64,000 bases of DNA from Hypomesus transpacificus (taxonomy: Eukaryota > Chordata > Actinopteri > Osmeriformes > Osmeridae): contig NC_061071.1 of the NCBI RefSeq assembly GCF_021917145.1, positions 1,328,460 through 1,392,459 of the forward strand, in the 5' to 3' direction. A program made the position numbers and the translations under genes. Every line of letters starts with the position of its first letter. The first letter of the stretch is position 1. The notes beneath the pieces are model-generated. The model saw nothing but the letters and a program-made list of their open reading frames with translations. It was not told the DNA's origin and searched no databases. This document shows positions 9,201 through 57,837 of the stretch, in pieces.

Positions 9201-12200
9201 GAGGGTTAGGGTGTGCAACTGAGGTTCTGTGAGGCTGAGGGAGGGAGAGGGTGAGGCTGAGGGAGGGAGGGAGAGGGTGAGGCTGAGGGAGGGAGAGGGT
9301 GAAGGAGGGAGAGGGTGAGGCTGAGGGAGGGAGAGGGTGAAGGAGGGAGGGTGAAGGAGGGAGGGTGAGGCTGAGGGAGGGAGAGGATGAAGGAGGGAGG
9401 GTGAGGCTGAGGGAGGGAGAGGGTGAGAGAGAGGGCGTCCCTGGTGAGCACCCTAGACAGAGGTTAGGGGGTTAGAGTCGAGGTTAGTTTGTGTGACAAC
9501 ACTGACACCTAGCTGCTGGAAGGACAAACTGCAGCCGGCTGCACCAGGAGAGTGAATCCACACTAAACTGCAGCCGGCTGCACCAGGAGAGTGAATCCAC
9601 ACTAAACTGCAGCCGGCTGCACCAGGAGAGTAAATCCACACTAAACTGCAGCCGGCTGCACCAGGAGAGTGAATCCACACTAAACGATACCCTGAAACTA
9701 GTTTGTTTGAAACTATGTCCATATACTTGCACCATGGAGACGTAAAGCTCCTCTTAGCTAAATTGCAAATGCTAAACATTAAGTCCACACAAACCTTTTG
9801 TAGCCAGAAGCAAGAAGCACTATTCTTGATCCTGCCAATCCCTGTTCATTATTGGCATACGCCATGTGACCAGTATTGGTCCAGAAGGCATGAGGAGCAC
9901 AAATTCCCAGGTACAACACAGGCAGCTACACACAAAACCAAACACACGGGGACACACACACGGGGACACACACACGGGGACACAGCCTCTGGAAGGCCAA
10001 TGACCTTGGAAAAATACTTAAAGGATATTGGGCCTCATTCTCGAACGCAGTTAAGAATTTAAGAAGGTATTTTTTCTGAATTGGATTTAGGAAAACATTT
10101 GGCGTTCATGAAAGTTCTCATCTGCCCCCAACACCCCTCCACCCAGCCCGCTCAGAATGGGAGCTGTAATTCCACCCAGTAACAGGGTGGATGTACTGAG
10201 AACAGTGATTGACATCTCAGTTTTACTGTGCGAGAAGTGTATACGGATTAGGGTTAGGAGTGTATACGGGTTAGGGTTAGGAGTGTATAGGGTTAGGGGT
10301 GTATAGGGTTAGGGTTAGGAGTGTATACGGAAAGGGACTGGTCTCTATACCAGCCAACACTGTGGCCATTGTGCTTAACCAGGCAAATATGAACAAGGCA
10401 ATAAATTAAAAAAAATCATATATGGATAAGAGCGTCTGCTAAATGACTAAATATATATAAACAAACCAGTCAGGCTACGGGAAATTAGGCTTACTGAATT
10501 GAACAAACTGACCTGCTGTAGCCTGAACTTAAACCTTCATTCTGGTCCGCATGGACCAGCACTCAGTTCCCGACACATTCTGAGGTGGTTTGTAGCGTTG
10601 TAGCCGACCAAAGATGGCGAAAGCCAGCTAGATGCAGGTGTGATCAGACATGATTAGACATGAGCTAATATGCACACACCAACACCCAAACCCACACTGT
10701 TACCAGCTACCCAAAACAAGAGGGAAGCCAAAGTGGTGAAAGTGTGAGAGGATCTGGAGGCTGACAGCTGCTCTACACGCCTGCTCTACACGCCTGCTCT
10801 ACACGCCTGCTCTACACGCCTGCTCTACACGCCTGCTCTACACGCCTGCTCTACACGCCTGCTCTACACTCCTGCTCTACACGCCTGCTCTACACGCCTG
10901 CTCTACACGCCTGCTCTGGGTTAGTGTCAGTGTCTCAGCCTGACCAGGACTGAGCGCTGTCATATCAACACAGCATAGTGGGAGAAACACACAAACTCTC
11001 TCACACACACTCACGGAGACAGCTGCAACCTGAACCTGCTACTGGCTCTGGGGGAGAGAAGCGTGCCACACACTAACACGCACGCATTGTACCTGTACCT
11101 GTTCCACATGATACACACATCTAACTGGGGGAAATCATCTGTTCCTCTTATTGTGAGTGTTGGGGGGGGGGGGACTCGTCTCACAAAGTCTAGACAAGCC
11201 ACCCCTCCCTCACACTGGCATGTAAACACACACTCATCCCTCCCTCACACTCCCATCCCCAGTTCATCCTCACCTGTCCTCCTCGTCTGCATGCTGACTC
11301 CTCAGCGCTGCGTCAGTGTCTCCCATGTGGCCCAGGCCCCCAGCAGCCCTGGCCTCTGCGCCCGCCTCCCCCCTGCCTGCTCCCCCAGCAGCTCTGGCCT
11401 CTGTGCCAGGCTCCCCACCGCCCGTGGCCCCTAGCCTGGGCAGCCCTGCAAGGCCCTGGTGCTGGAACAGCAGCCTCTGGGCGTCCTGGAGCTGAGAGGC
11501 CGTCAGGGAGGGCATGCTGCCCAGGTGAGCAGCCCCGCCGTGGGCCTGGCTGAGGGCCATGCCGTGGGTCAGGAGAGGCTGGAGGTCAGCCTGCAGGGTG
11601 GTCAGAGGCAGGTATGTGTGGGAAGGAGCCCGGGGGCTGGAGGAGGGCTGGGCTGGAGCAAAGACAGTCTGGGAGGAAGGGCCCTGACCCTGAAAGGGCT
11701 GACTGGCACCACCGAGCCCCAGCAGGGAAGCTCCTGTGGGGGCGGGGGCCAGAGGGGCCTGGGCCTGGGCCTGGAAGGGGGCGGTGGGCTGGATGAAGTC
11801 TGGCTGCCTGCCCCCGGCCATGGCCAGCTGCCCTGTAGAAAGCTGGGCAGGATAGCCCCCACGGCCGGGCTGGGCATCCACAGCATAGGCCAGGTGCTGG
11901 ACCATGCCAGAAGGGGCCAGGGTCATGACCTGGGGGGTTGAGGGGAGAGAGGAGGCCAGGCTGGACTGTCCTGGCTGGACCAGGTTAGTGCCAGGATGGT
12001 GAGGGCCTGTACGAGTCAGGGGGGGGCTCTGGACCAGAGCAGGGAGGTTTTGGACCAGAGCAGGGAGGTTCTGGACCAGAGCAGGGAGGTTCTGGACCAG
12101 AGCAGGGAGGTTCTGGACCAGAGCAGGGAGGTTCTGGATGGCTTGTGGGCTGGTGAAGTCTTGCGTGTGCTGCTGATAAGACTGCAGGGTTTGGGGTGCA

Positions 12201-13363
12201 GGGGCTGCTCCTCCTGCCTCTCCCTCGGGGGGCGGGGCCTCCCCAGGCCTGGGGCTGGCATCAGCGGCTGCAGGGGGAACCTCCTTCTCATAGTACTCCG
12301 TACACATCCACCTCCCCTTGCGGTAGGGCTCAGAGTTGGAGTCCAGCTTCACCACTCGGAAACGAGAGCCAGGGGTAGACTGTGACTGAGTGGTAGTGGT
12401 GACCCCAGCTGGGCCCCCAGCCAGGCCTCCCACTCCAGACAGGCCTCCCACTCCAGACAGGCCCCCAGCTCCAGACAGGCCCCCGGCTCCAGACAGGCCC
12501 CCGGCTCCAGACAGGCCCCCAGCTCCAGACAGGCCCCCGGCTCCAGACAGGCCCCCGGCTCCAGACAGGCCCCCGGCTCCAGACAGGCCCCCAGCTCCTC
12601 CTCCAGTGGAGGGCCCCTGCACAGTGCTGTCCAGGGCCATGGGGCCTGAAGAGAGAAGAGTGTTGCTGACAGCAGTAGCGTTAGCCTGCGCCAGGCTCGT
12701 GCTGCGGGGTGGCTCTGTCTCTACAAAGGGGGCAGGGGGCAGAGGAGCTGCAGCAGCCGCTCCTCTGGCCTGGCCGGGCGCTGAGAGAGGAGCTGCAGCC
12801 TCCACACTCTGCAAGCAAGGGGGGAGCTGGAGCGGGTGGGCAGCCCCGTTCACCAACTGCTGCTGCTGAGACACAGCGGGGAGGGAGTGGGGGTGCAGGG
12901 GCTCGTTGGGGGACACCAGTCCAGGGGTTTCCACCCCTTGGAGGCTGTTTAGAGTCTCGTCTGAAGAGCTTCTCTCTGGGAGGCCAGTGTCTGTGGCCCG
13001 GGACACAGACACGTCAAGCATGTCCGAGGAGGAGAGATCCTCCGTGTGCGACTCGTCCATGTCGTCATAGCTTTCCGTGTCGTCCGCTACGCTGTTGTTG
13101 GTGCTCACGGAGATCTGGGCCGGGGTGACGCTTGTAATCTGGAAGCCGCTCTTCTTCTTCACAACGGACTGAGACTGAGGGGCAGTGCTCGCGCTGTGGG
13201 GGTGCTGGTGGGGCCCGGGGGAAGAGGAGCAGGGCTGGTTTAGAGGCTGCGGCGTAGTTTGATGGTCTTCCGTGGGGTTAACGTAACTGCCGCTCGATGC
13301 AACAGATGACGCAGATGTACTGCTACTGCCCCGTCTGTGGTGGAAAGCTGTAGGGTGCGACAT
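261..13363 (-). CDS. tsc22d1: TSC22 domain family protein 1, long isoform (three coding exons)
   Basis: Coding exons on the minus strand are 13363-11274, 2456-2405 and 494-261 (2,376 nt, 791 aa). Phases agree at both GT-AG junctions. Exon 1 has the long-isoform blocks [38 protein letters not shown] and [14 protein letters not shown]. The 52-bp exon 2 encodes [17 protein letters not shown]. Exon 3 encodes the TSC box ([20 protein letters not shown]) followed by a leucine zipper ([18 protein letters not shown]). TSC22 proteins dimerise through this C-terminal zipper and act in TGF-beta/BMP-related transcription control and stress signalling. The start [12 protein letters not shown] resembles the mammalian MAHPAMFPRRG start. 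Exon 1 carries two in-frame minisatellites. Intron 1 is about 8.8 kb and full of tandem repeats. I looked for the alternative first exon of the short isoform and did not find it. Family identity is very secure; choice among TSC22D paralogues rests on the long-isoform N-terminus. Confidence 0.95.
706..1400. repeat. Minisatellite in tsc22d1 intron 2
   Basis: Tandem units built around CAGACCAGGACACTA, with or without a leading CCCCTCT block, so unit lengths alternate between about 14 and 23 bp. The 3' part adds GGAAACCA inserts. Long overlapping plus-strand reading frames here are artefacts of the repeat. Confidence 0.9.
1620..1850. promoter_or_regulatory. GC-rich block with a TATA-like motif in tsc22d1 intron 2
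   Basis: CpG-rich stretch, unlike its AT-rich surroundings, containing the near-palindrome GGTTATATATAACGG at about 1721-1735. It could be an internal promoter on either strand. No clear first exon joining tsc22d1 was found, so the role is a guess. Confidence 0.25.
1851..4300. other. tsc22d1 intronic sequence around exon 2, no other gene seen
   Basis: Apart from tsc22d1 exon 2 (2405-2456) this is AT-rich intronic DNA. A GC-richer patch lies at about 3420-3660 and might be a regulatory or internal promoter region, which is where a short-isoform promoter would be expected. I could not build a coding exon there with the phase exon 2 needs. Confidence 0.4.
4305..4805. repeat. Pyrimidine-rich minisatellite in tsc22d1 intron 1
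   Basis: About 17 tandem units of 28-30 bp sharing CAGCCTCCCTCCTTCCTCC, with alternating variants CTACCACACCC and CTACTGCCCC. Strong C/T versus A/G strand asymmetry. Confidence 0.9.
4810..6490. other. tsc22d1 intron 1 sequence without recognised gene
   Basis: Unique-looking intronic DNA with a short CA run near 5490-5510 and poly-G runs near 5590-5620. An open minus-strand frame at 5588-5956 has no recognisable domain or splice context and is not called. Confidence 0.4.
6495..6770. repeat. GA-rich microsatellite
   Basis: Purine-only stretch of imperfect GAGA and ACAGAGAGA units in tsc22d1 intron 1. Overlapping frames on both strands are low complexity. Confidence 0.85.
7134..8066. repeat. 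27-bp minisatellite, about 34 copies
   Basis: Very regular 27-bp unit containing GTGCTACTGCATGC and TATGTCATCAT. The main variants are CTCTATG or CGCTATG, plus a GTGG variant. Because 27 is a multiple of three and the unit lacks stops in several frames, reading frames of about 340-350 aa appear on both strands. These are treated as artefacts inside tsc22d1 intron 1. Confidence 0.95.
8160..8272. repeat. 36-bp tandem repeat, three copies
   Basis: Units contain GGTAAACAGTGGCAGTAAGC and AACAGCTACATGCAA. They are near-identical, suggesting recent duplication. Confidence 0.85.
8815..9000. repeat. 43-bp tandem repeat, four copies, after a TG run
   Basis: Units contain CCAGGATACAGACCCCTGCT and CCAGCCAATCACAGTG, including a CCAAT motif in each copy. 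A TG dinucleotide run lies just upstream at about 8756-8808. Confidence 0.85.
9225..9435. repeat. G-rich minisatellite
   Basis: Imperfect units of GAGGCTGAGGGAGGGAGAGG. Repeated GGG runs on the plus strand give G-quadruplex potential. Confidence 0.85.
9527..9690. repeat. 39-bp tandem repeat, four copies
   Basis: Units contain CTGCAGCCGGCTGCA (itself a palindrome) followed by CCAGGAGAGTGAATCCACAC. Confidence 0.85.
9700..10765. other. tsc22d1 intron 1 sequence with degenerate repeats and an L2-like tail
   Basis: Contains ACACACGGGGAC repeats (about 9935-9985), TTAGGG-rich sequence (about 10235-10330), and a LINE-like 3' tail ending GCGTCTGCTAAATGACTAAA near 10430-10455. The tail is directly followed by a 44-bp copy of sequence also found at 6968-7011. 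No coding sequence recognised. Confidence 0.5.
10770..10918. repeat. 13-bp minisatellite in tsc22d1 intron 1
   Basis: About 11 units of GCTCTACACGCCT, one with ACACTCCT. Confidence 0.9.
12035..12140 (-). repeat. In-frame 21-bp coding repeat in tsc22d1 exon 1
   Basis: Five copies of the heptapeptide QNLPALV, with no break in the reading frame. Confidence 0.9.
12430..12600 (-). repeat. In-frame 18-bp coding repeat in tsc22d1 exon 1
   Basis: Nine copies of the hexapeptide LSGAGG or LSGVGG (seven A, two V) just before the conserved SRFRVVKLD block. Confidence 0.9.
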
Positions 13364-14810: not shown

Positions 14811-14816
14811 TTTATT
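14811..14816 (-). other. Candidate polyadenylation signal of nufip1
   Basis: AATAAA on the minus strand, about 165 bp past the stop codon ending at 14979. Confidence 0.5.
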
Positions 14817-14978: not shown

Positions 14979-17900
14979 TTAGATATTTCCATAGGGGTCT
15001 TCAGTATTTCTATCTGTGATCTCCCATATTTCATCATCGTAGATCGACACTTTGGGCTTGAGGGGGCTACTAGAGGTCAGACCCAGATGATGTAGCTCTC
15101 CACGCCCGCAGTGAGCAGCCCCTCCCTCTACCACCACCACGCCAGGCAGAGCATCTTCAACAGGCTCACACAGTCCTGCTGCCTGGGGAGAAACACTCCC
15201 CAAGTCTGTAGGAGGTCTATAGGGCTGGTCTGGGACTGTAGGAGGTCTATAGGGCTGGTCTGTAGGTCTATAGGGCTGGTTTGTAGGAGGTATATAGGGC
15301 TGGTCTGTAGGAGGTCTATAGGGCTGGTCTGGGACTGTAGGAGGTCTATAGGGCTGGTATGTAGGTCTATAGGGCTGGTCTGTAGGAGGTTTATAGGGTT
15401 GGTCTGGGTCTGTAGGAGGTCTATAGGGCTGGTCTGTAGTAGGTCTATAGGGCTGGTCTGGGACTGTAGGAGGTCTATAGGGCTGGTCTGTAGGAGGTCT
15501 ATAGGGCTGGTCTGGGACTGTAGGAGGTCTATAGGGCTGGTCTGTAGGAGGTCTATAGGGCTGGTCTGTAGGAGGTCTATAGGGCTGGTCTGTAGGAGGT
15601 CTATAAGGCTGGTCTGTAGGAGGTCTATAGGGCTGGTCTGGGACTGTAGGAGGTCTATAGGGCTGGTCTGTAGGAGGTCTATAGGGCTGGTCTGGGACTG
15701 TAGGAGGTCTATAGGGCTGGTCTGGGTCTGTAGGAGGTCTATAGGGCTGGTCTGTAGGAGGTCTATAGGGCTGGTCTGGGACTGTAGGAGGTCTATAGGG
15801 CTGGTCTGGGTCTGTAGAAGGTCTATAGGGCTGGTCTGTAGGAGGTCTATAGGGCTGGTCTGGGACTGTAGGAGGTCTATAGGGCTGGTCTGGGTCTGTA
15901 GGAGGTCTATAGGGCTGGTCTGTAGGAGGTCTATAGGGCTGGTCTGGGACTGTAGGAGGTCTATAGGGCTGGTCTGGGTCTGTAGGAGGTCTATAGGGCT
16001 GGTCTGTAGGAGGTCTATAGGGCTGGTCTGGGACTGTAGGAGGTCTATAGGGCTGGTCTGGGTCTGTAGAAGGTCTATAGGGCTGGTCTGTAGTAGGTCT
16101 ATAGGGCTGGTCTGGGACTGTAGGAGGTCTATAGGGCTGGTCTGGGTCTGTAGAAGGTCTATAGGGCTGGTCTGGGACTGTAGGAGGTCTATAGGGCTGG
16201 TCTGGGACTGTAGGAGGTCTATAGGGCTGGTCTGGGACTGTAGAAGGTCTATAGGGCTGGTCTGGGTCTGTAGGAGGTCTATAGGGCTGATCTGGGACTG
16301 TAGGAGGTCTATAAGGCTGGTCTGTAGAAGGTCTATAGGGTTGGTCTGGGTCTATAGGAGGTCTAATCCCAGGGTTAGGCTTCTCTTCCAGGGGCAGAGT
16401 GTGGAGGTGTTCCTTGTGTGGCATGCCTCGCTCAACTACCGTCTCCATGACATCAGCGCCTGATGTCTGACTGGGCCTCTGCTCAGAGAACACCTTGGAA
16501 ACACTCAGACTGGAAACACTCAGACTGGAAACACTCAGACTGTCAACCTGCCATCTGAGGCAGTGAACTGGTGGCTGGTCGCTAGCTAGCTCTGCTGACC
16601 TCATGTGACTGTTACCAGCTTGACTCTCTCTCTCCTTTAGGATCCTAAGGTCTTCTCCAGTAGCGCTCACTGCCCTCTCCTCTGTAGCGCTCACTGCCCT
16701 CTCCTCTGTAGCGCTCACTGCCCTGTCCTCTGTAGAGCTCACTGCCCTCTCCTCTGTAGAGCTCACTGCCCTCTCCTCTGTAGAGCTCACTGCCCTCTCC
16801 TCTGTAGCGCTCACTGCCCTCTCCTCTGTAGAGCTCACTGCCCTCTCCTCTGTAGCGCTCACTGCCCTGTCCTCTGTAGCGCTCACTGCCCTGTCCTCTG
16901 TAGAGCTCACTGCCCTCTCCTCTGTAGAGCTCACTGCCCTGTCCTCTGTAGCGCTCACTGCCCTCTCCTCTGTAGCGCTCACTGCCCTGTCCTCTGTAGC
17001 GCTCACTGCCCTGTCCTCTGTAGCGCTCACTGCCCTCTTCTCTGACTCCTGTCTGTTCAGAGTTTTAACCTCCAGACCAAATAAGTTGTTCCGCACGATG
17101 TAGCGTACACACTGCAGGAGAACGTTCCTCTCATGGCGGATGTCTGGAGCCAGCAGCTGCAGGGTTGAGAACAGACGAGAATTTTTCAGATACTAAAATA
17201 AATCTAAGTGAATGCTTCCCACTCCTGTTAACCCATATTACCATCTCCAGTAAAGTGGCACGGCGCCGGGGCAGTGCTGTGTGTTGCTGCCCCCTCCGGC
17301 CCCCTCTCCTTCCACTGCAGGGAGGTAGGGGGGGAACAGGCCTGGGCTTCATGCTCTCAGGGTATGGTCTCCTTCCCAGAGACTGTGTTGGGTTCTGAGG
17401 GCTGACTGACTTCAAAAGCACCTGGTTCTCCGACAGGAGCAGGCTGGCTCTCTGGATTGGGAGCACTGACAAGCAGAGACATGTATAAAAAACAGAAATC
17501 TGCTTAAATGCGTTCTCCTAACCGTCAAAACGTAAGAGCACTCAAGCGCTGTGACGACATAAGAAAGACAGGAGGGTTCACAGGGCGGGTCTGTGTTTGT
17601 GGAGCTACAGGGGTCAGGGTTAGGCCCACACCAATGACATGGGCCACCATGTTGGGTAAACATACAACTGCCATCTAAAAGCTAGTGTAAACTGTGGTTA
17701 GTCCTTAAGAGCACCAAGAGCACCCAGCACTAATAGTGGCCATGATTTTTACCTTGACGCTGTGCCGAGGGGTGATTGTGTGTGTAAACTCACAGTCCGG
17801 CTCCTGGTCGCTGTCACTCTCTGTCATAGAGCCGTAGTTAGCCATTAGCGCCCCCAGCCCCGAGGTCATCTGTTTGGGCACCACAGTGATTCCTGCCCCC

Positions 17901-20709
17901 TTAGCATTGTCCGCTGACTCCTCTATGTCCGAGTCTGAAAGGACAACAGTATCACACCCTGGTCCTGCCTTTATGAAGGAGAGCAGTGACTGTACAGGCA
18001 GGAAAACAGAACGAGGGCCGAGCATAGCTCACCTGGGTCACTGCTGGCCAGAGCCCCCAGAGGATCTCCCTCCTGGGAGGTTTGTGTGAGGGGGGGTGCT
18101 CGCTCTGCCCCTCCCCCTCCTGGGGCCAGGGGTCTGCCCCCCCCGCCCTGCTGGAAGCCTCTTCTGGGCCCCCTCCCCCTGCCTCTTCTTCTCCTCATCC
18201 TTCTGGAAACACAACGGAACAGTTTCTAACTCAACATTCCTAGAACTGCACGCTGTTTGAATGATGTTTTGGATAAAAGCGGCTGCAAAGTAAAGACATG
18301 CAAATAAATTTAAATTTAAGCCTAGAGCAAGACACATACCCAAACTGTGCCGTTTCCAGAACCTCTCCTCTCTCCTGCCTGGTCTCCATCACTCTCCTCT
18401 TCTTCTCCACGTTCTGCAGAGTTGGGTATTTCCTGCAGTTGTTGAATATTAGAGTCTTTCAACTAGTAATCGTGTCGCAAACATACATCACAAAGTTGTA
18501 GTGTATAGTATGGGTTAGTATGTATGTGTTAGTATGGGTTAGTATCTAGTAGGTATACAGCAGCGACACAGCACCACCTAGTGGTTTTATTTGGCAAGTG
18601 TAATCCGTAATCTGTTCGGTGTAATCCTGGACTCTGAATCTCTGGACTTTGAATTTCAACTCTCACATTAATAAAGTGACCAAAACAGCTTTCTTTCACC
18701 TGAGGAATATAGCAAAGGTACGACCATTCAAAAACCAATATGATGCAGAGAAGTTAATTCATGCTTTGATATCCAGCCGGCTGAACTACTGTAACGTACT
18801 TTTCACTGGTCTTCCCAAGAAAACCACTGAAAGACTACAGCTCTTTCAAAATTCTGCAGCTAGATTTAACCAAAACTAAAAGGAGAGAACACATTAGTTC
18901 AATCCTAGCTACTTTACACTGGCTCCCTGTTACCTTCAGAATTGACTTTAAGGTCCTTTTCCTCACATACAAAGCTCTACACGGACAAGGGCCTAGCTAC
19001 ATTGCTAACTCCCTTATAAACTACACACCAGCTAGAACACTGCGATCATCAAATGCAGGCCTATTAGAGGTCACCAGCACCTTGAGCTGCAATTCTTGTA
19101 TGAAATGTGCTATATAAATAAAGTATTATATTATATTAAGTGACTGGCCAAATAACGCCAAGGGCCAGAGCCATGAGACAGTTAACACCATCAGGTCATC
19201 TGGGTGAAGCTGCATGAGACAGTAAATACCATCAGGTCATCTGGGTGAAGCTGCATGAGGCAGTAAACACCATCAGGTCATCTGGGTGAAGCTGCATGAG
19301 GCAGTAAACACCATCAGGTCATCTGGGTGAAGCTGCATGAGGCAGTAAACACCATCAGGTCATCTAGGTGAAGCTGCATAAGGCAGTAAACACCATCAGG
19401 TCATCTGGGTGAAGCTGCATGAGGCAGTAAACACCATCAGGTCATCTGGGTGAAGCTGCATGAGGCAGTAAACACCATCAGGTCATCTGGGTGAAGCTGC
19501 ATGAGGCAGTAAACACCATCAGGTCATCTGGGTGAAGCTGCATGAGGCAGTAAACACCATCAGGTCATCTGGGTGAAGCTGCATGAGACAGTAAACACCA
19601 TCAGGTCATCTGGGTGAAGCTGCATGAGGCAGTTAACACCATCAGGTCATCTGGATGAAGCTGAATGAGTCAGTTAACACCATCAGGTCATCTGGGTGAA
19701 GCTGCTACAACACAGTAAAACATCCATCACATACCTGCGCCTCTCTTCTCTCCATTTTACTATTTCTTCTGGGGTATCCAACTTGATTCTTTTGGCTCCT
19801 GGGGCGTGGTTCTAATAAAAGGGACAGGACACACTGTTAATTAGGAATAATATCTCAAAATAAATGTGATCAGCTGTAGCTTGGTGGATCCACCTACATT
19901 GATCCAGTGAATGTTCACCAACTTCTCATGAGCAGTAAAACTGCAGTCTTCAACCGAACACTATGAGAAAATGCATTATAATCAGTCTTCATCGTATTAT
20001 CATGTTCATGAAGGCACTGTCCCTCCTGGATGTGTGTTGAATATGACTGCTGGAAACTAGAAGTTATAGCAGGACTAGTTACCTTGACATGTTGAGCAAT
20101 ATGTTCATCATACTTTTCTTGATTTTTAAACCCTTTGTCACACGTGTCACAGAAGTGGGAAAACTCTGGTTCTTTTCTTTTCATCTGCTGCAACAAGGAG
20201 ACGTTATCTCATACATGTGCCTCAATCTCCCTCTGCAGGTGGGTCAGGGTGGGTGTGTGTGTACTACTACCTTGTTAACGTGGACGTGGTGCGGACCATA
20301 TCTTGCACCACGTTTGAACCCCTGCCCTGTGAACGTAGCGGTAAAATACCAGTGTTGGAAACAGATTGGAGGAGTTCAAAATGCCAATGATGCTCCTTGT
20401 GACTTGAGTGAAGTATCTTCCCCACCCAGCAGAAGAGCCGAACACTTTCAGGACCACAGTCAACTTACCGCGTGAATGACTGAACCCGTAATGTTCTCCA
20501 CCGGGGGGTCCGCCGCCCCCGCCGCCGCCCCGGGATCCTTGACCGTTGTAGCCCCACGGGGTGCACGGTTGCTCGAACCAGTTCCACATACCGGGGTGAA
20601 AGTTGCTCCAGGGTGGCTGTTGGCACTGGAATGTTGCTGGTCTTATCACCGCCGAATCGGGAACGGGACAGCCAAAGTCCGGAGGGGGATAATAACTCTG
20701 ACCGCTCAT
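14979..20709 (-). CDS. nufip1: NUFIP1, box C/D snoRNP assembly factor, with repeat-expanded C-terminus
   Basis: Ten coding exons on the minus strand: 20709-20469, 20326-20271, 20187-20083, 19960-19898, 19811-19735, 18432-18340, 18202-18033, 17934-17794, 17465-17242 and 17156-14979. All junctions are GT-AG and phases agree, giving 3,348 nt (1,115 aa). Recognition rests on the zinc finger (HFCDTCDKGFKNQEKYDEH, then CSVEDCSFTAHEKL), the NUFIP core (HAPGAKRIKLDTPEEIVKW, then KYPTLQNVE) and LLAPDIRHERNVLLQCVRYI. NUFIP1 binds SNU13/15.5K and helps load box C/D snoRNPs in the nucleus; it also binds FMRP. The human protein is about 495 aa and ends soon after the LLAPDIRHERN region. Here the last exon runs on for about 690 more codons, mostly two tandem repeats, ending in KVSIYDDEIWEITDR. 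Introns hold an L2 fragment and a 41-bp minisatellite. Confidence 0.92.
15205..16370 (-). repeat. Coding minisatellite, DQPYRPPT type, in the nufip1 last exon
   Basis: About 1.16 kb of tandem units encoding DQPYRPPT (24 bp) and VPDQPYRPPT or DPDQPYRPPT (30 bp), all multiples of three, with no stop in the nufip1 frame. The opposite strand is also open (about 450 codons), which is a by-product of the repeat. Confidence 0.95.
16650..17040 (-). repeat. Coding 24-bp minisatellite, RAVSATED type, in the nufip1 last exon
   Basis: Sixteen consecutive octapeptides RAVS(A/S)TE(D/E), in frame with nufip1 and starting soon after the conserved YIVRNNLFGLEVKTLN. Confidence 0.95.
18620..19137 (+). mobile_element. 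LINE L2-type retrotransposon, 3' fragment
   Basis: Plus-strand translation gives the C-terminal part of an L2-type reverse transcriptase (KTAFFHLRNIAKVRPF, SSRLNYCNVLFTGLPKK, LQLFQNSAAR), then frameshifts and stops. It ends in a 3' tail GTGCTATATAAATAAAG plus a short AT-rich run. It is 5' truncated, inactive, and lies in nufip1 intron 5. Confidence 0.8.
19180..19715. repeat. 41-bp minisatellite in nufip1 intron 5
   Basis: About 13 units sharing CACCATCAGGTCATCTGGGT and GAAGCTGCATGAGGCAGTAA. Variation is limited to single bases. Confidence 0.9.
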
Positions 20710-21398: not shown

Positions 21399-24300
21399 AT
21401 GGGCTTCGGAGATTTGAAATCACCTGCAGGCCTTAAGGTCCTGAATGCGTTTTTGTCAGACAAGAGCTACATTGAGGGGTTGGTATTAACCTTTACTACA
21501 TTTTTACTCGCGTTCTCGGCCTCTGTGCCTGCCATGGCTTGTGACGTCGTCAAGAATGAGGCGGGTACGGCCTAGCTAGCTGCAGCTGAAGCAGGGTTAC
21601 TGTGGAAGCTACTACTTAGTTAGCCAACGTTTATTGGATCAGTCTTGAGTGATATTTGAGGCAGCTTTTAGGGAAGCAGGAACATTTACGTTTTCTTGGG
21701 TTAGGGTTAGCAAGCTTTGGCGAGTTCTGCTTTTGGCATTAGGAGCACAAGTAAAATCACAGTTGAAACTGATATCCGATGTTAGTAATATGAGGAATGT
21801 ATATTATATGAATGTGTACGTGTGCTGGGTGTTAGGCTCAGCTATGGGGAGTTTTAAACCCTGTCTTGTCCTGGTCACCTGTGTGTGCAGGTACGTGCCG
21901 TCTCAAGCGGACGTGGCCGTGTTTGACGCCATCTCGTCTCCCCCCTCCACAGAGCTGTGCCACGCGCTGCGCTGGTACAACCACATTAAGTCCTACCAGC
22001 GGGAGAAGACCAGGTGCGTCTCGTGTTGATGTGACAGTTATTATCTGTGGTTCCTGAAGGTCTGGTTATATGATGATCTTTAACACCATCTTTCGCCTGA
22101 TAAATTTGATGCACAATTTAAAATGCCTGATTGACCATGACCAGTGAGTGTGCAGTAGCGTGTGGGTAGTGTGAGATGTGTCTCACGACCCTCTGCCCCC
22201 CAGCCTCCCCGGGGTGAAGAAGCCCTTGGCCCAGTATGGCCCCTCGGGGGTCGAGGACCAGACCGCCGCAGACGCTAAGGATGACGACGACCTCGACCTG
22301 TTTGGCTCCGATGAGGAGGAGGTAAGATTGAGGGGGGGGGGGGGGGGTACTATGGGGGCTAGGTGCTCTGCAGCTTTTAGGGCTGGGATCAGGGACTCGT
22401 AGCCACAGGCAGGGCAGGTATGAGTTGGTACCACAACTAGATCAGCCCTATTTATCTTAGACAGAAGCAATGACTTCTAATGGCAGTATTCGGTTTCTAG
22501 TACTCATCTACCTGTGCCTCCAGCTGATCCAACCCTCCGTCTTGATGTATCATCTGCTTGCTGCTGGCTTGAGGGCCACTCCTAACCTTTGACCTTCTCC
22601 TTTAGGACGAGGAGGCTATCAGGTTGAAGGAGGAGCGCGTGGCAGCCTACAACGCCAAAAAGTCCAAGAGTACGCTTCTCCATATCTGGATCATCCACAA
22701 GCTCAAACACAGACCTACCCCCCCAACACCAGTTCACACACAGACCTGCCCCCCCCCCCCCTACCAAGAGGGCTTCCTCTGTCATACTGAAGTGTATTAG
22801 TTGGCAAGCCTATGATGATCAACTCACCATCTTTCGTCTGATATGTGATGGACACCACTTTGACCTGATGGCTCCCAGATGTTCCAAGAGCCTCTGGTTT
22901 GGTGTCTGCCCCCGCCAGGAGGTAACCACTGGGTCTTGTATTCACAGAGCCGATTCTCATTGCAAAGTCGTCGATTCTGTTGGATGTGAAGCCCTGGGAC
23001 GATGAGACAGACATGGCCAAGCTGGAGGAATGTGTTCGCAGCATCCAGTTGGACGGCTTGCTCTGGGGGCAGTGTAAGTAACCGCTTCATGTAACAGTTG
23101 AATTGATTAAACTTCAGTATATTTATTTTAAAGGGGTCATTGACTGGGTTTTTTGGATATTTCACACTGTTATTTAGGGTCTCTGAATAGGGTATGTAAC
23201 ATAGGGTATGTAACATTGGTTAGGATGAAAATGGCCCCGGTGCTGTTTAATGCCCCCTGGTGCTTCCTTTGAAAATGTCCCGGGAAAAACATTTGGTTTT
23301 CTTATTTTATGGTATGCTCATTAAGTGGTTTTTCCCGCAAGCTGTAGTATGATTTTGTCGGTAAGTTATTAGTAATGCCAACATATCCTGTATCTAACAC
23401 CTGCCTTTCTCCAGTTCTTTCAAATAGAGCTAGACAAGCATTAGCAATAGGCTAGACTGCTATTCGTTTTCTGACCATTTTTTCGGAAGCTTCCCTTATA
23501 ATGCCACCTACAGCTAGTCTAGAGTAATTTGCTAAGTAAGGTGTTTTGAAACGTGTTTAGCATTCTACCTATGCTAGATACAGGAGACGTTAGCATTGCT
23601 AATAGGCTAACTGTTAGCGACAAAATCATACATACAGCTTGCGTTTGTGATGAGCATACGGTCGGAACAGCACCTCTTTTCAGCAACAGCGGCTTAGCAA
23701 ATCCTTCTTTAAATTGTCCAAGTTTTCATTCAAAACAGTTTGGTGAAATGGTTCGAGCAAATGAATGTGTCGAACTTAGCAGGGATCTTCTCATAGAAAA
23801 ACTTCAGCCATATGGAAGCAAATCGTGACCAAAATTCAAATGAAAATGCATTTCCAGAAATGTATTTTCATTTTAAGAATGTGGCTGCATTATTTGACTC
23901 ATAAATCAAATTAGTATTCAATCATCCTATTTGCATTTTCATTTTCTTCTTTAAGACTGCTCATTCTTTCCCTTATTTAAAATGAAAACAAAAAAGACAT
24001 TTGAAATTTAATTTTCAAAATATGCCCCAGCAAATAGATACCAAAATTCAATTTGAAATGTAAAATTTGAAAATGAAAATGCATTTCCAGAAAGCTGACA
24101 AAAGTATCTGAATTTGAATATGAAATATTTGTGTGTCGAATTTCATAAAACTGAAATATATTGCTGTTGAATATATAATATCTGAATTATTTGTATGCCA
24201 AATTTAATATAACTGAATTATTTTGATCCAAAAATAAAACAGTCTAAAATTCAGATTGCAGGAATTCAGATTCTTGAAATTCAGATTGCGGAAATTCAAA

Positions 24301-26179
24301 TTCAGATTGCGGAAATTCAGATTTTGTCTGAACCAGGCCAAAGGTGAAACAGCTTGCTTTCACAGGAAAAAGTAGACCATTTAATAAATAGTTCTCGATG
24401 GACTCGAACGGGATGTGGATGGTTGGTCGTCCCCGTCCCATTTGAGGCTCCACAGCATCCAGCCGTTCCAGGACTGAAGAGAGGTTTACTATGGCAACCT
24501 CATTAATGTGTACGTCTGTGACGGCAGAGTATGCAGCCAAGCTCTCTGTGACTTGTTCTACTCGGTCACGGGCATCAGACTCAGATATATTATTAGTTTC
24601 TACCAGCTCAGCTAATTCTATCAGTGTCTGCACAATTTGAGGGAGCGCCATGATCTGTGATGCGTCCTCTAAAGACCCGGCAATTCAATCAATTTCCCGG
24701 CACATTTGCCATGTAATGCAATGCGTATGTGCACACCGCCCCCTACCGAACAAGATGGGTAGCTCGGTCAGCAGGGAGCTGAAGAAGAGCGGCTACTGAC
24801 GTCACTCAACTGCGCCGCTCAGAATGCATTTTCGTTTTCGAATTATGGGCAGTTCTTTGCGGGCAGAACATGAAAATGAAAATGCAATGTCCGCTCAGTA
24901 CTAATCAGTACTAATTTGATTTATGAGTCAAATAATGCAGCCACATTCTTAAAATGAAAATGCATTTCTGGAAATACATTTGAATTTGAATACTGGTCAC
25001 GATTTTGCAGCCACGTTCTTAAAATGAAAATGCATTTCTGGAAATGCATTTGAATTTGAATTGTGGTCACGATTTTGCAGCCACGTTCTTGAAAATGAAA
25101 ATGCATTTCTGGAAATGCATTTGAATTGTGGTCACGATTTTGCAGCCACGTTCTTAAAATGAAAATGCATTTGCATTTTCATTTTAAAATTTTACATTTC
25201 AAATTGAATTTTGGTATCTATTTGCTGGGGCATATTTTGAAAATTAAATTTCAAATGTCTTTTCGTTTTCATTTTAATTAAGGGAAAGAATGAGCAGTCT
25301 TAAAGATGAAAATGCAAATAGGATGATTGAATACTAATTTGATTTGAGTCAAATAATGCAGCCACATTCTTAAAATGAAAATGCATTTCTGGAAATGCAT
25401 TTTCATTTGAATTTTGGTCACGATTTGCTTCCATACAGCCATGCCCCTCGAGTGTCTGGTTCCTTTGGAAGATTATGAAGTGTCAGCATTCCCAGTACAG
25501 CCTGGAACACTGCATTTACGATGGTCCATTTTCAATATACTTTCAAACTTCCTCCTTTGTTGTTCATGTGGAAGTACACAGAGCAGCGCACAGCTAAACT
25601 AGTGTCTAAGATCCTGGGCCAGAACACCAGAGGGCTGGCCTGTATATAAATGTTGGGGTGTGACAAAGGTGATGCTATATTTGTGACGTCACAAATGCAG
25701 CTTTTTCAAAACCGATCGTTCTACAGCTGCAGTTTCAAATTGTGAGATTTAGATGGGAAAGGGGTGTCAATGGACTTTGAGGTTCACTGTATGTCCATTT
25801 TACCCACCGAACTGTCGTTATTCAACAATGTCAAGGTATAATCGGTTTTGCAATCAATGACCCCTTTAAAGAAGCAGTTAAGGAGGACAGAAATCTTTCT
25901 GCGGTTAATGTTGTACCTCCTGAGATCTGTTACTATGGTGACTTAACGTGCCATGTCCCCCTGTTAATGTTGTACCTCCTGAGATCTGTTACTATGGTGA
26001 CCAACGTGCCATGTCCCCCTGCAGCCAAGCTGGTGCCAGTGGGCTACGGGATCAAGAAGTTACAGATCTCCTGCGTGGTGGAGGATGACAAGGTGGGCAC
26101 CGACAGCCTGGAGGAGCTCATCACTGCCTTCGAGGACTACGTGCAGTCCATGGACGTGGCCGCCTTCAACAAGATTTAG
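21399..26179 (+). CDS. eef1b2: Elongation factor 1-beta (eEF1B2), six coding exons
   Basis: Coding exons are 21399-21478, 21891-22013, 22204-22321, 22606-22669, 22948-23073 and 26025-26179, giving 666 nt (221 aa; human 225 aa). The first donor is a weak GTTGGT; all phases agree. Sequence markers in order: [37 protein letters not shown] with [13 protein letters not shown] (GST-like N-terminal domain), [14 protein letters not shown] (acidic linker with CK2-type serine), [16 protein letters not shown], and the C-terminal exchange domain ending [14 protein letters not shown]. eEF1B2 exchanges GDP for GTP on eEF1A during translation elongation in the cytoplasm. A 5'TOP-like start fits translation-factor regulation. 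Introns 2 and 4 carry snoRNA candidates, and intron 5 carries a long inverted-repeat transposon. Confidence 0.96.
22062..22138 (+). ncRNA. snord51: Box C/D snoRNA candidate in eef1b2 intron 2
   Basis: Box C ATGATGA at 22070-22076, D' CTGA at 22097-22100, C' TTGATGC at 22106-22112 and box D CTGA at 22127-22130. The sequence before D' (CACCATCTTTCG) is complementary to the conserved 28S rRNA segment CGAAAGATGGTG. Human EEF1B2 hosts SNORD51, which I recall as targeting this 28S region. The closing stem is imperfect (CTGGT with ACCAG). The symbol is by host gene and guide, not alignment. Confidence 0.7.
22806..22874 (+). ncRNA. snord51: Second box C/D snoRNA candidate with the same guide, eef1b2 intron 4
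   Basis: Box C ATGATGA at 22812-22818, D' CTGA at 22838-22841, C' GTGATGG at 22845-22851 and box D CTGA at 22865-22868. A short closing stem AGCC/GGCT sits right beside the C and D boxes. The D' guide CACCATCTTTCG is identical to that of the intron 2 candidate, so the two are probably duplicates. Confidence 0.75.
23811..25435. mobile_element. DNA transposon with inverted repeats of about 280 bp, in eef1b2 intron 5
   Basis: The left end TATGGAAGCAAATCGTGACC (23811) is matched by its reverse complement ending at 25435. Similarity continues inward about 280 bp on both sides (left to about 24090, right from about 25155). The 6-bp sequence CAGCCA flanks both ends (23805-23810 and 25436-25441), as expected for a target-site duplication. 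Parts of the end sequence recur in tandem at 24905-25160. An internal minus-strand frame is described separately. A 6-bp duplication fits superfamilies such as IS3EU or Dada, but I cannot assign it. Confidence 0.75.
24244..24651 (-). CDS. Transposon-internal open frame, possible transposase N-terminal remnant
   Basis: A 135-codon frame starting [18 protein letters not shown] and containing [25 protein letters not shown]-x-IPxE pattern resembles the region ahead of integrase-core domains in fish transposon proteins. This is a resemblance from memory only. The C-terminal third is a repeat-derived EFPQSEF tail, and no catalytic domain follows, so the copy is non-autonomous. Confidence 0.35.
   Translation of the reverse strand: MALPQIVQTLIELAELVETNNISESDARDRVEQVTESLAAYSAVTDVHINEVAIVNLSSVLERLDAVEPQMGRGRPTIHIPFESIENYLLNGLLFPVKASCFTFGLVQTKSEFPQSEFEFPQSEFQESEFLQSEF
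25904..26020 (+). repeat. 59-bp direct duplication before eef1b2 exon 6
   Basis: Two near-identical copies containing GTTAATGTTGTACCTCCTGA and ending in CATGTCCCCCT, at 25904 and 25963. The second runs directly into the GCAG acceptor of the last exon at 26025, so the branch point and pyrimidine region are duplicated. Confidence 0.85.
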
Positions 26180-33627: not shown

Positions 33628-36600
33628 CTGTGAGAGCATGTCCTGCAGCTTCAGGTTTTGCTGTCTCAGCTTCTCCATCTCAGCCTCCATCAGGGAGCAG
33701 CGATCTTCCAGGCAGCCCTGCTCCGCCTGCAGCGCCACCCGCAGCACCTGCATCTGCCTCTCCAGCAACCTACACATACAGACACACACACCACACACAC
33801 AGACACACACAGACACACACCACACACACAGACACACACCACACACACCACACACACACACACCACACACACAGACACACACCACACACACCACACACAC
33901 AGACACACACCGACACACACCATACACACAGACACACACCACACACACAGACACACACCACACAGACACACCACACAAACAGACACACACCACACAGACA
34001 CACCACACAAACAGACACACCACACAAACAGGCATGCACACACACCCAAAGAGACACACATACACAAACACAGTGTCTGGTTGTAGTTTGGGGTGGAAAG
34101 GGGGTATATGTTGGGAGTTAGTTTGGGGCCACTAACCATTTGTCCCTCTGTAGGTCTCTCACATCCTTCAGAAGCACAGAGGATCCTCTCTGTAGAACAA
34201 CAACACCACCAGATGATTCTACTCATGAGATCAGTTATTTAGTTTGATCAATTCCAACCAATGAGAGCAGACTAGAGAGGTCACCTGGGGACATTGTGTC
34301 TCCTCCTCTGTCTGTAGGGCTTTAGACTGTAGGCTGACGGGGGGTGGAGGGGGGGAGGGGGGCAGAGGGGGGACAGGGGAAAGGATATGAGCTTGGGGAT
34401 ATGAGTGGTTGTCACTGGAAACAGACTCTTGACAGACAGGTGAGGCAGCCAACTGGGGTGGGTCAGGGGAAGGGGCTCTGGAATACAAAACAACATTTAT
34501 ACATAAAAACATTAATAACAATACACTGTATTGATCAAGGATATAACATGTATACCTGAGGAGGGGTACAGGTGAGTGGTAGGGGCGGAGTCTTACCTGC
34601 TCTGCGTCAGACTCCTTCTCTGAAACCCTGAGCGGGTGTATCGTCGTGGCAATAGGGCGTGGCGGGCGTTGTGAGCTAGCGAAGCCAAGGACTCTCTCCA
34701 GGAGGGCTGGAGTAAAATCACAATGTTCACACGTGTGTACGTAAATGTGTGAGTGCAGTGCTCCTATACTGGATGTGTGTTCCTGCAGTGCTCCTGTACT
34801 GGATGTGTGTTCCTGAGAGCAGTGCTCCTGTACTGGGTGTGTGTTCCTGCAGTGCTCCTGTACTGGATGTGTGTTCCTGCAGTGCTCCTGTACTGGGTGA
34901 GTGTACCTGAGTGCAGAGCTCCTGTACTGGGTGTGTGTTCCTGAGTGCAGAGCTCCTGTACTGGGTGAGTGTACCTGAGTGCAGAGCTCCTGTACTGGGT
35001 GAGTGTACCTGAGTGCAGTGCTCCTGTACTGGATGTGAGCTCTTGTGTTTCTTGGTGTATCTCTCTGTCAAGAAGCAGGTTTGGCAGAGGTGAAGGTTCA
35101 CACATTTCATACAGCGATACCTGCAGACACCACAGCACAGGGTCACCCCAACCCACATTCATCACTACACCTGATCAACACATCCACAGGGTCACACACA
35201 CACCTGAGCCCTGTGATTGGGTGGGTGTTGCAGGCGTGGCAGCGAGTGGGGTGGCGGAGGGCCTCGCTGGCTGACAGGCGGTCCAGTATGGAGAGCCACA
35301 GCAGCAGACACGGGCCACTCTGCAGCCACGACACCAGCTGGTCCTCACACACACACGGGCCCAGGACCTGCAAACACACATTACATTCATTTAGCACATA
35401 CTAAATTAATTGATCCAAAGTGACATACTAATAGTATTTTGGTGGATAGAGAGCAGTCCATGTACGGTACACACTCAGATTCCATGAAGAGATTCAGATC
35501 AACTCACACACTCAGATTCCATGAAGAGATTCAGATTAACTCACACACTCAGATTCCATGAAGAGATTCAGATCAACTCACACACTCAGATTCCATGAAG
35601 AGATTCAGATTAACTCACCCCATTAAAGCAGGATCGCACTGCCGTCTCCACTGACCCGAACACACTGCTCTCCTGCACTGCAGCCGGCACCTTCACACAC
35701 ACACAGTGTGTATAGTGTGTGTATAGAGTGTGTATAGAGTGTGTATAGAGTGTGTGTGTACCTGGCTGAGGTCCTCCAGTAAGACTCTCAGGCCGTTCCT
35801 GCTGACAGAGCTGCTCTCTCCCCTGCTGCTCCTCTCCGCCAGACATGCTAGAGCTGTTCATGGACACACCCCTCTTCACCTGTGTGTGTGTGTGTGCATG
35901 TATCTGTGTGTGTGCATCTGTGTGTGTGTGCACGTATCTGTGTGTGTGTGTATCTGTGTGTGTGCTCCTCACCTCGGTGTTTGGCTGACAGTGTGTCTGC
36001 TGACAGCACAATGAGAACAGCTTCCAAAGCTCTGACACAGATGGACCCTGTCTGCTCCCTGGAATACAGTCCTGATTCAGGCTGGAGAAAGCTGACCTGT
36101 GTGTGTACGTGTGTGTGTGTATCCTTGTGTATGTATGTATGTGTGTGTGTGTACATACGTGTACCGACCTGTCGTAGAGGCGGTAAAGGAGTCTGCAGAT
36201 CTGCTCAGGGGCCTCACTCGCTACCTGGCCTGACAGTTCCTCCGATACACTTTGGAACATCCTGTTAATGCACAGCATCACTTCCTGCTTGGTGAGCTGG
36301 GCCCCGCCTCCAGACAGCAGGCGCAAAGCAGGAAGTACTTCCTTCACTGTCACCACGTGCACTGCAACACACTGTGTCAGCTATACACTGCTTTGAACAT
36401 ATGTTCATGTACATCAAACACATTGACACTAAAGCAGCATCAGAGCCAGAACAACCAGGTTAAAGAACAGCTTCTTCCCAGAAGCTGTCAGACTTACTAA
36501 CTATGCCACACCCCAGAACTGACAAAACTGAACTGTTACACTGAATTGTTTCCACTATGCTGCTAATCTCTCAGGTTCGTCTAGTATGTATCAATGTGTG

Positions 36601-40337: not shown

Positions 40338-41920
40338 TCACATAGGCTCCTCCCTTCCTTTTCTGCAGGCTCTTCCGCCCTGCAGACCCCCTCTCCCACA
40401 GGCCCCTCCCCCCAGCAGGCTCCTCAGGTTCTGGCGGAACTGCCAGGAGGAGCAGTAGTAGAGGACTGGGTCAAAGCAGCAGTGGAAGCTGTTGAAGGCC
40501 AGAGCCAGCTTGTAGCCGGCGTACAGACTGCGGCTCTGGGAGCTGAGGACAAAGTGGACCGCCTGGAGGATGATGATCGGCAGGTAGCAGGTCACGAAGC
40601 ATGCACCCGTCACGGCCACCACGGCCTGCGCCCGCCGCAGGGACGCTGTCTCCCTTTCTCCTTTATCCAGCACCCTTGACTTGCGCAGGGTCCTCACCAC
40701 GGCAACATAACAGCCAATCAGGATGATGAGCGGAATTAAGTAGAACAGAACCATGATAGCTATGAAGTAAAGGTATGCTAGGGGCGTGCTGTGGAACAGC
40801 CTGCGAGGAACCACGTCAAAGCAGGTGGTGATGTTGAGCTGTGCGACCCTCAGAGTGAGGTTGTGCTGCAGCAAGGGGGTCTGGGTGACTAGAACCAGCA
40901 CCCAGATGAGCAGGCATGTGGCGGCTGCACGGGGTGAGGTGCGCCAGTGCTGGGTGCGTAGCGGCCACACCACTCCACAGTAGCGCTCCAGGGAGATGGT
41001 GCAGGTGGTGAGGACACACACATGCATGTTGCAGTGGAGCAGGAGGGTGGAGGCGCCACACAGGAAGGAGCCCCACGGCCAGTCGTTGCCCTGGAAATGG
41101 TACAGAACCTGGACACACACACAGGAAAGGGATTCGACAATGTAGTTTAGCGGTCAATCTAACCACATCAAGTCTTTATCATCGCTGTGGTGCCACATAC
41201 TGATAAGCTACTGTCAAGGAGTTGTGACATATCTGCTCTGATCACCCATATGCATCCGCACACAGTTTTTTCAAAGTATGCACATTTTTCCTAAACTTTT
41301 GAGGTTCGTTTTTATGATGTATGGAGTCAAACATACAGTTATATAGGACTTGTCTTGAAACACAGCAAGCAAGAATATGCTGTAGGAACCTAGCTTTCCA
41401 CTGGGTTCTGCAATGACAACTGACAGCTGTTTTAGGGTAGTAGTGAATGTAACCACAGCATGAGGGCTGAGTGCAGAGGTGGAGGAGTTAAGGCTGCCGC
41501 GTGCTGGAAACCACCACACGGTGGGAGCACTTCTCCTTGAACCTTCAACTTTGCCACCTCTATCTTTGCCACCTCTATCTTTCCCACCTCTATCTTTGCC
41601 ACCTCTGCTTTCTTGCAACCTGCAGTTGAAGAACCTCACTCCTGTGCAGAGGGACGAGGCCCCGTCTCTGTCCTCACCTGCAGAGGCAGCGACGCGCTGT
41701 ACATCAGGTCTGCCAGCACCAGGTTCACAGCAAATAGGCTGGTGGGACTGTGGCGTCTGCAGGGGATGCTCACCAGCGCCACCAGGGACACCAGGTTGAA
41801 GGGGGTACTGCAGATGAAGACCAGCAGGTAGACAGACGGCACAGCACGTGTCATCAGCGGGCTGATAAGCATCTCCAGAGTGCCGTTTCTCAGCGCTGTG
41901 GCAACGGGGGTTGCGTTCAT
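40338..41920 (-). CDS. p2ry8: P2Y-family GPCR, P2RY8-like
   Basis: Two coding exons, 41920-41678 and 41108-40338 (1,014 nt, 337 aa; human P2RY8 is 359 aa), join in phase 0 at LPLQ/VLYHFQGNDWPWG. It is a seven-helix class A receptor. TM1-2 lies in SVYLLVFICSTPFNLVSLVA and SLFAVNLVLADLMYSASLP, and the TM3 motif is SLERYCG. ECL2 has a cysteine (ITTCFDV) to pair with FLCGA at the top of TM3, and TM7 has FDPVLYY, the P2Y-type DPxxY. The N-terminus NGTLEML and ITTCFDV are shared with P2RY8, which recognises S-geranylgeranyl-L-glutathione and signals through G-alpha-13 to confine B cells. Assignment within the P2Y/P2RY8 group is from memory of human sequence. The intron holds a 15-bp repeat (TATCTTTGCCACCTC, about 41550-41615). 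Confidence 0.8.
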
Positions 41921-51148: not shown

Positions 51149-51990
51149 GTAGAAAGAGAGAGAAAAAGAGACCCCCTTTGTGTGAGTGTGTAAGTGTGTT
51201 TTGCGCGCACGCGCGGCTGTTGATGTGTGTGTGTGTCACCTGCTAGACTGCTCTCCTAGGTTCCAGGTTATGGTTGCTGGTGTGTTGGATCTGCAATCGC
51301 AGTTGTGCAGTAACTGATCGCAAGGGGAGGGGAGGAGAGGAGGAAAGGGAGGGGAAGAGAATAAGTTATTCGTGTAGACCTCGCTATTGCAGCTGTAGCC
51401 TGTGTGTGTGTCTGAATGAGTGTGTGTAAGAAAGCGAGAAAAAGAGAGAGAGGTACTGCAAAAAAATCGCATTAATAAAAGCCACAAAACCTGTAGGCTA
51501 CAATGTGCTTTGCATGCATCCCTTCATGAAACTTTTTAGAGCCCTTGTTCGGCACGTGTTCAGAAGTAAGATTGTTTATTGGGTATTTCCCCTTTCGCGT
51601 CCCGGCCCATAGCTCCACTCTGTGTTGGCTTGCTCTGGCTTGTATCACTGCACCACTTCTGCAACCTTCCCTCCGTCTGGCCCAGAGATGGAGGCTCACA
51701 CTACAGAGACAAGGGGCCCCTCTGGCGTCTGCTGCCTCGGTACCGAGGCTTGGTTACCATGCCGCCATAAGTCTCAACTCAATGAAAGTAGGAGGCAAGC
51801 AACTGAGGCACTGTTTGATGTCATGGGGTTAGGGTTGTCATGATTTAGATTCTGTTTTGTGGAGGAATGCAGGAAGAGAATACTCAAGACCGGAACCTCA
51901 GACCATGAAGGTTAATATTCTTACAAAGATTTAACTGGCAGATTGTTGTTTTTATACCATCATTATTTGAAGTGTGCTGGACGCATAGAG
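51149..51990. other. Sequence following the unidentified exon
   Basis: Short TG and GA runs (51210-51240, 51430-51450) and otherwise unremarkable intron-like DNA. Several overlapping short frames at 51545-51843 have no support. Confidence 0.4.
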
Positions 51991-51999
51991 GGTGGGACT

Positions 52000-52550
52000 G
52001 TTACTGTGTAGCCAGACTGTCTCATAGTTACCATGTCGCCAGACTGACTCATAGTTACCATGTTACCAGGCTGTCTCATAGTTACCATGTTGCCAGACTG
52101 GCTCATAGTTACCATGTTGCCAGACTGACTCATAGTAACCATGTCACCAGACTGTCTCATAGTTACCATGTCGCCAGACTGACTCCTAGTTACCCTGTCG
52201 CCAGACTGTTTCAAAGTTACCATGTCACCAGACTGACTCATAGTTACCATGTCGCCAGACTGACTCATAGTTACCATGCCGCCAGACTGACTCATAGTTA
52301 CCATGTCGCCAGACTGGCTCATAGTTACCATGTCGCCAGACTGACTCATAGTTACCATGTCGCCAGACTGTCTCATAGTTACCATGTCGCCAGACTGACT
52401 CCTAGTTACCCTGTCGCCAGACTGTTTCATAGTTACCATGTCACCAGACTGACTCATAGTTACCATGTCGCCAGACTGACTCATAGTTACCATGTCGCCA
52501 GACTGACTCATAGTTACCAAGTAACCAGACTGACTCATAGTTACTTCACG
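52000..52550. repeat. 27-bp minisatellite, about 20 copies
   Basis: Units contain CTCATAGTTACCATG and TCGCCAGACTGA, open on both strands because the unit is a multiple of three. No gene context. Confidence 0.95.
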
Positions 52551-55835: not shown

Positions 55836-55839
55836 AAAC

Positions 55840-56860: not shown

Positions 56861-56864
56861 TTAC

Positions 56865-57607: not shown

Positions 57608-57830
57608 CAGGGGTGGGGAACCTTTTTTCTGCCAAGGGCCATTTGGATATTTCTAAAATCATTTGGGGGCCATACAGAATTATCAACTTAAAAATGTGCC
57701 TGCTATATTTGGTCAAACATTTAATTAACTCACCCCTAATGTGATGGCTGGAACTGCTTATCTTTGGTGAGGTTTGTGATGTTAGCTGGCACAGATGCAG
57801 CCTGCTTTGACTAGGGGTGCATTAAACATT
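57608..57830 (+). mobile_element. hAT/Charlie-like end fragment
   Basis: Begins CAGGGGTGGGGAACCTTTTT then CTGCCAAGGGCCATTTGGAT, a start typical of vertebrate Charlie-type hAT elements. It is cut off by the satellite array starting near 57,838. Confidence 0.55.
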
Positions 57831-57837
57831 TCTGGGG

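Follow-up and report, generated by a model that had tools for sequence, protein, structure and literature searches.

The question raised by this locus is whether the last exon of nufip1 carries on, beyond the conserved end of the protein, into a long extension built from tandem repeats, and whether that extension is coding. The window, meaning the whole stretch of DNA that was analysed, is 64,000 nucleotides from Hypomesus transpacificus.

Gene model of nufip1

We set the exons of nufip1 by eye from the reading frame and splice signals, without transcripts. The gene is predicted on the minus strand from 20709 to 14979, with ten exons and a single terminal stop, and appears intact. All introns as drawn are GT-AG and their phases join, giving a joined frame of 1,115 codons that is closed by its only stop. 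The elements of the model are as follows.

20469..20709, minus strand: exon 1, coding part, with the ATG at 20709 (GT donor, frame joins)
20271..20326, minus strand: exon 2, weak donor (score 0.21; frame and splice signals)
20083..20187, minus strand: exon 3, C2H2-type zinc finger (frame and splice signals, Pfam)
19898..19960, minus strand: exon 4 (frame and splice signals)
19735..19811, minus strand: exon 5, first half of PF10453 (frame and splice signals, Pfam)
18340..18432, minus strand: exon 6, second half of PF10453 (frame and splice signals, Pfam)
18033..18202, minus strand: exon 7 (frame and splice signals)
17794..17934, minus strand: exon 8 (frame and splice signals)
17242..17465, minus strand: exon 9, weak donor (score 0.78; frame and splice signals)
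14979..17156, minus strand: exon 10, coding part, 725 codons and stop (open frame, acceptor CTGCAG)
14811..14816, minus strand: candidate poly(A) signal AATAAA, 162 nt past the stop

Exon 10 lies in an open reading frame of 737 codons (minus strand, 14979-17192). Splice sites were scored with a crude weight matrix. By this measure the two lowest donor scores, both weak, belong to exon 2 (0.21) and exon 9 (0.78), the other seven donors range from 1.7 to 7.23, and the acceptor before exon 6 scores -1.81. On the plus strand, a frame at 18625-18879 lies inside a nufip1 intron near a 41-bp minisatellite of 13 copies, and presumably resembles a piece of a non-LTR reverse transcriptase.

The Pfam domain NUFIP1 (PF10453) was found within the first 430 residues of the joined protein, covering model positions 2-53 of 53 (E 1e-18; 67.3 against a cut-off of 23.3). 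Ahead of it, zf-C2H2_jaz reached 24.3 bits in the exon frame (cut-off 22.6) and 22.3 bits, slightly below that threshold, on the joined protein. At its beginning, exon 10 matches the NUFIP1 chain B of PDB 5l85 (E 8.4e-9, 29 of 34 residues aligned), so the conserved LLAPDIRHERN block that the sequence-only reading had placed in the last exon is indeed kept. We take 5l85 to be the human ZNHIT3-NUFIP1 complex, with residues 462-495 of 495, the extreme C-terminus of human NUFIP1, as its NUFIP1 chain, and the segment from LLAPDIRHERN to FGL to be the part of human NUFIP1 that binds ZNHIT3. PF10453, the C2H2-type finger and this C-terminal segment are shared with NUFIP1 (Rsa1 in yeast), the box C/D snoRNP assembly factor; the gene here differs in the 697 codons that follow the conserved segment. 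Judged from its sequence, the gene is nufip1, the repeat-bearing exon is its last, its frame is intact, and the repeats carry the protein past the conserved segment, which supports that part of the sequence-only reading. The large lineage-specific change that it also proposed is a possibility.

According to PMC9406135, mammalian NUFIP1 binds ZNHIT3, 15.5K and R2TP proteins and links 15.5K to NOP56, NOP58 and fibrillarin, and its stability depends on ZNHIT3. NUFIP1 is also reported, in PMC12152620, as a receptor for starvation-induced ribophagy.

Anatomy of the exon 10 extension

Past FGL, 697 codons run to the stop TAA and make up 62.5% of the predicted protein, close to the extension of about 690 codons first proposed. 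They are arranged as a 12-codon link, 16 RAVS units, a 100-codon spacer, 42 QPY units and a 74-codon tail; the link and RAVS units together give 140 residues and the QPY part 383.

17073..17156, minus strand: conserved segment LLAPDIRHERN...FGL, matching 5l85 chain B
16653..17036, minus strand: RAVS(A/S)TE(E/D)-type array, 16 units of 24 bp (TRF array 16660-17044)
16353..16652, minus strand: spacer of 100 codons, mainly unique
16496-16542: short array within the spacer, 15 bp, 3.1 copies
15204..16352, minus strand: QPYRPPT-type array, 383 codons, 42 units of 30, 24 or 21 bp (TRF array 15206-16365)
14979..15203, minus strand: unique tail of 74 codons with VSIYDDEIWE, ending in PYGNI and the stop TAA

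The count of sixteen RAVS octapeptides, the roughly 1.16 kb of DQPYRPPT-type units and the non-repetitive tail containing VSIYDDEIWE, all described earlier by the sequence-only reading, were recovered here. Its statement that 24- and 30-bp units preserve the frame holds for the frame but is incomplete for the sizes, since units of 21 bp and the 15-bp spacer array occur as well. Taking a coding minisatellite as tandem units of 10-100 bp in a coding exon, the 24-bp array and the 30/24/21-bp array both lie inside exon 10 as predicted from the sequence.

In the RAVS array all 15 spacings are 24 bp, and the final unit is RAVSATGE. Each of its 16 units (16653-17036, minus strand) also contains a weak donor-like GCA/GTGAGC, the slash marking the junction, and isoforms in 24-bp steps are possible. 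The 41 spacings of the QPY array are less even (23 of 30 bp, 16 of 24 bp and 2 of 21 bp) and are partly arranged as 84-bp blocks of 30+30+24, which suggests recent block duplication. QPY units are near-uniform: 39 of them, compared over their 21-bp cores, show 13 substitutions, a count that leaves out two 21-bp units and the last of the 42. The variants YKPP, RPTY, YIPPTN and RPTD all lie toward the C-terminal end of the array.

In terms of composition, the QPY part is 37% proline and holds 43 Y and 40 R, regularly placed, with 33 YxxP, 38 R-x-x-S/T and 23 S/T-x-x-E/D patterns. The RAVS part has a net charge of -15, 17 R-x-x-S/T and 21 S/T-x-x-E/D patterns. When the parts were scanned separately, the single match to [WFY]xx[LIV] was YGNI at the extreme end. 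Such patterns carry kinase, SH2 and LIR meanings; considering that repeats multiply such matches, they deserve little weight here.

Chance or coding

The frame is open for about 2 kb, as first described, but an argument from length is weakened by longer repeat-borne frames elsewhere in the window. Frames of 803, 822 and 840 codons lie over the array at 57848-60177, and two other frames over the QPY array itself are open for 407 and 455 codons. Because in-phase repeats hold frames open in this way, bare open length proves little and was rejected as coding evidence. The control comes from 57782-60333 on the minus strand, where three overlapping frames of 803-840 codons sit on a 37/32-bp minisatellite of 64 copies; these are likely non-coding and are a useful control for claims based on long open frames.

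Support for coding beyond chance comes instead from the openness of the spacer and tail and from unit sizes that keep the frame. Both the spacer and the tail are open in the sense frame and have stops in all five others, with simulated probabilities of being open of 0.009 and 0.011, respectively. None of the 39 k-mer spacings in the QPY array (30, 24, 21, 48 and 54 bp) and none of the 15 in the RAVS array is off a multiple of three. We compared these with 16 arrays hand-picked from the 63 in the window, which we sorted into mixed and plain from the spacing output: nine were of mixed length, all nine with frame-breaking differences, and the other seven had one size or its multiples. Among arrays with a period of at least 10, at least 2.5 copies and a score of at least 120, all 4 that lie in the two identified exons have periods divisible by three, as do 8 of 25 elsewhere (Fisher P 0.021, with two repeat regions counted twice among the 25). 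The latter fraction is the chance rate. One of these 25 arrays sits in a nufip1 intron (19172-19705), and the set may include coding arrays, in which case the control would be blurred.

Codon usage did not separate sense from antisense, as the best antisense frame scored -0.030 against -0.039 for sense in the spacer and -0.107 against -0.102 in the tail. Purifying selection, sought in the substitutions among units, gave no signal: 9 of 13 were nonsynonymous in QPY units (65% expected) and 13 of 16 in RAVS units (70% expected), a pattern that looks neutral for the protein. Stops were absent among the unit substitutions, which is powerless as a test.

Searches for relatives of the tail

The tail gave no significant match in Pfam or PDB. 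Its PDB match to ZAP-70 (E 1) was rejected, as was a resemblance of the RAVS part to the phage domain Gp5_trimer_C (Pfam E 0.26; 11.9 bits against a cut-off of 30.9); the last 30 residues gave no PDB match. No relatives were confirmed in viral contigs and prokaryote genomes, where fish genes are not expected, and these negatives therefore say nothing about conservation. Within the window, the spacer (287 bp) and the tail (227 bp) have no other copies, the longest non-self match being 36 bases. Among the NUFIP1 papers listed for zebrafish, fish and tandem repeats, titles and abstract openings did not mention a repeat tail; the one passage on tandem repeats, in PMC8343530, concerns cell-line typing.

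Repeats and genes in the surrounding region

Tandem repeats are abundant in the window, with 63 arrays of all periods covering up to 16.6 of the 64 kb, or about a quarter, small overlaps being counted twice. Next to nufip1, a 697-codon frame on the minus strand that starts at 13363 carries in-frame minisatellites at 12021-12138 and 12417-12598 with 21-bp VQNLPAL and 18-bp GAGGLS units. We take this adjoining frame to be exon 1 of tsc22d1. Based on the repeat-rich window and these two in-frame arrays, such mutation acts at least across the region and is not peculiar to nufip1; coding exons would then act as a filter that lets multiples of three through.

We also scanned 20 long frames of the window with Pfam (E up to 0.01), and the frame starting at 13363 had no match. 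An EF-1 guanine exchange domain (PF00736) was found at 25781-26179 on the plus strand (E 2e-19). The gene containing it (21400-26179, plus strand), probably eef1b2 on our assumption, stands head to head with nufip1, with start codons about 0.7 kb apart. A rhodopsin-type seven-transmembrane receptor frame (PF00001, E 3e-35) lies at 40338-41153 on the minus strand. The frame at 35610-36380 on the minus strand, possibly an exon, ends in EF-hand_3 (25.7 against a cut-off of 21.7 bits). Matches above curated cut-offs were also found in repeat frames, namely DUF3432 in 55777-56874, over the 55851-56851 array, and DUF7189, SH3_CYT4 and YodE in 51963-52628, over a 27-bp array; these were assumed to be driven by the repeats.

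Explanations for the extension

We consider an in-frame expansion of coding minisatellites in the last exon of an intact nufip1 to be the best explanation, with a probability of roughly 0.75. The gene structure, open frame and repeat anatomy are read from sequence, and translation, disorder, tolerance and selection on the frame are inferred. The AATAAA past the stop and the abundance of tandem repeats in the window also count in favour of this explanation. The last exon would have grown by replication slippage or unequal exchange of 24-, 30- and 84-bp blocks, and the repeat tail is probably translated. Its product would be a NUFIP1 of 1,115 residues, with a calculated mass of about 125 kDa against 47 kDa without the extension, comprising a 418-residue core and an acidic tail of 697 residues, which, judged from composition, is probably disordered. 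Since the tail follows the ZNHIT3-binding helix, a position at which extra residues should do the least damage to the core, the core could still take part in snoRNP assembly. In-frame length changes would be tolerated and frame-breaking ones removed, either because the tail end is important or because the shifted frames, too, are long and open. A frame that is kept as far as the unique tail would point to a constraint of some kind on that tail, or to the other open frames being avoided.

The arrays might instead be transcribed and left mainly untranslated, through an intron within exon 10 that runs to an acceptor near the tail or through early polyadenylation, so that the protein would end near FGL, as human NUFIP1 presumably does. 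Candidate sites for such an intron are present: the 16 GTGAGC sites in RAVS units score 0.65, between the weak inferred donors at 0.21 and 0.78, a GAG/GTCAGC at 16599 scores 2.28 against 0.21 to 7.23 for the inferred true donors, and a site at 15179 that resembles an acceptor reaches 4.19, the same score as four of the nine inferred acceptors have and lower than that of one other (4.98). These scores, however, come from the crude matrix, and an intron would require neither an open spacer nor units in multiples of three, yet both are present. We regard mostly untranslated arrays as quite unlikely; partial splicing-out of the arrays is possible given the weak inferred donors and acceptor and the score of GTGAGC. 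Tandem repeats are known to cause errors of assembly and annotation, as stated in PMC6868369, and the real allele could be much shorter or different if copy number or unit order were wrong. Every length variant keeps the frame, though, which random assembly error would not favour, and the unique spacer and tail would persist in any case; we find such an artefact very improbable.

In another reading, which is compatible with coding expansion and does not exclude it, the tail is a selected functional module, an older fish NUFIP1 C-terminus (VSIYDDEIWE) that the repeats have pushed away from the core, and the Tyr/Arg/Pro array is a multivalent linker. The frame held through two large arrays and one small array to the unique tail is in its favour, as is the regular placement of Tyr and Arg (43 and 40 residues) along the QPY part. 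The tail, however, has no significant Pfam or PDB match (best ZAP-70, E 1), it is unmatched in viral and prokaryote contigs, which would not be expected to hold fish genes, and the 34-residue human chain of 5l85 has at most 5 residues past the aligned part and thus no such tail there. We hold this reading to be unlikely. A bolder reading, in which about 42 evenly spaced Tyr-Arg-Pro-Pro and 16 RxxS/SxxE units form a condensate scaffold that tethers NUFIP1-ZNHIT3 to nucleolar or Cajal bodies by multivalent, phosphorylation-tunable contacts, VSIYDDEIWE serves for docking and ribosome supply is tuned by variation in length, is speculative and has only a slim chance of being correct.

Significance

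Expansion of coding minisatellites is already known, and the nufip1 tail, by its sequence, adds a large new example. Tandem repeats in protein-coding exons are described generally (PMC6868369) and for codfishes, where they are unusually dense in cod and haddock (PMC5894186), and nufip1 shares with them tandem units inside protein-coding exons. The haddock counts in PMC5894186 concern units of 1-10 bp, whereas the nufip1 units are 21-30 bp, and, in contrast to the codfish repeats, about 510 codons of repeat units here fall on a single housekeeping RNP factor. The case is also a warning that such tails can be lost from gene models built on repeat-masked sequence. The snoRNP or ribophagy roles of NUFIP1 could both be influenced by a long disordered tail. 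If it is translated, a conserved ribosome-biogenesis factor tolerates a repeat tail that is 1.7 times as long as its core, and NUFIP1 would offer a natural test of the extent to which a housekeeping protein can be remodelled by coding minisatellites.
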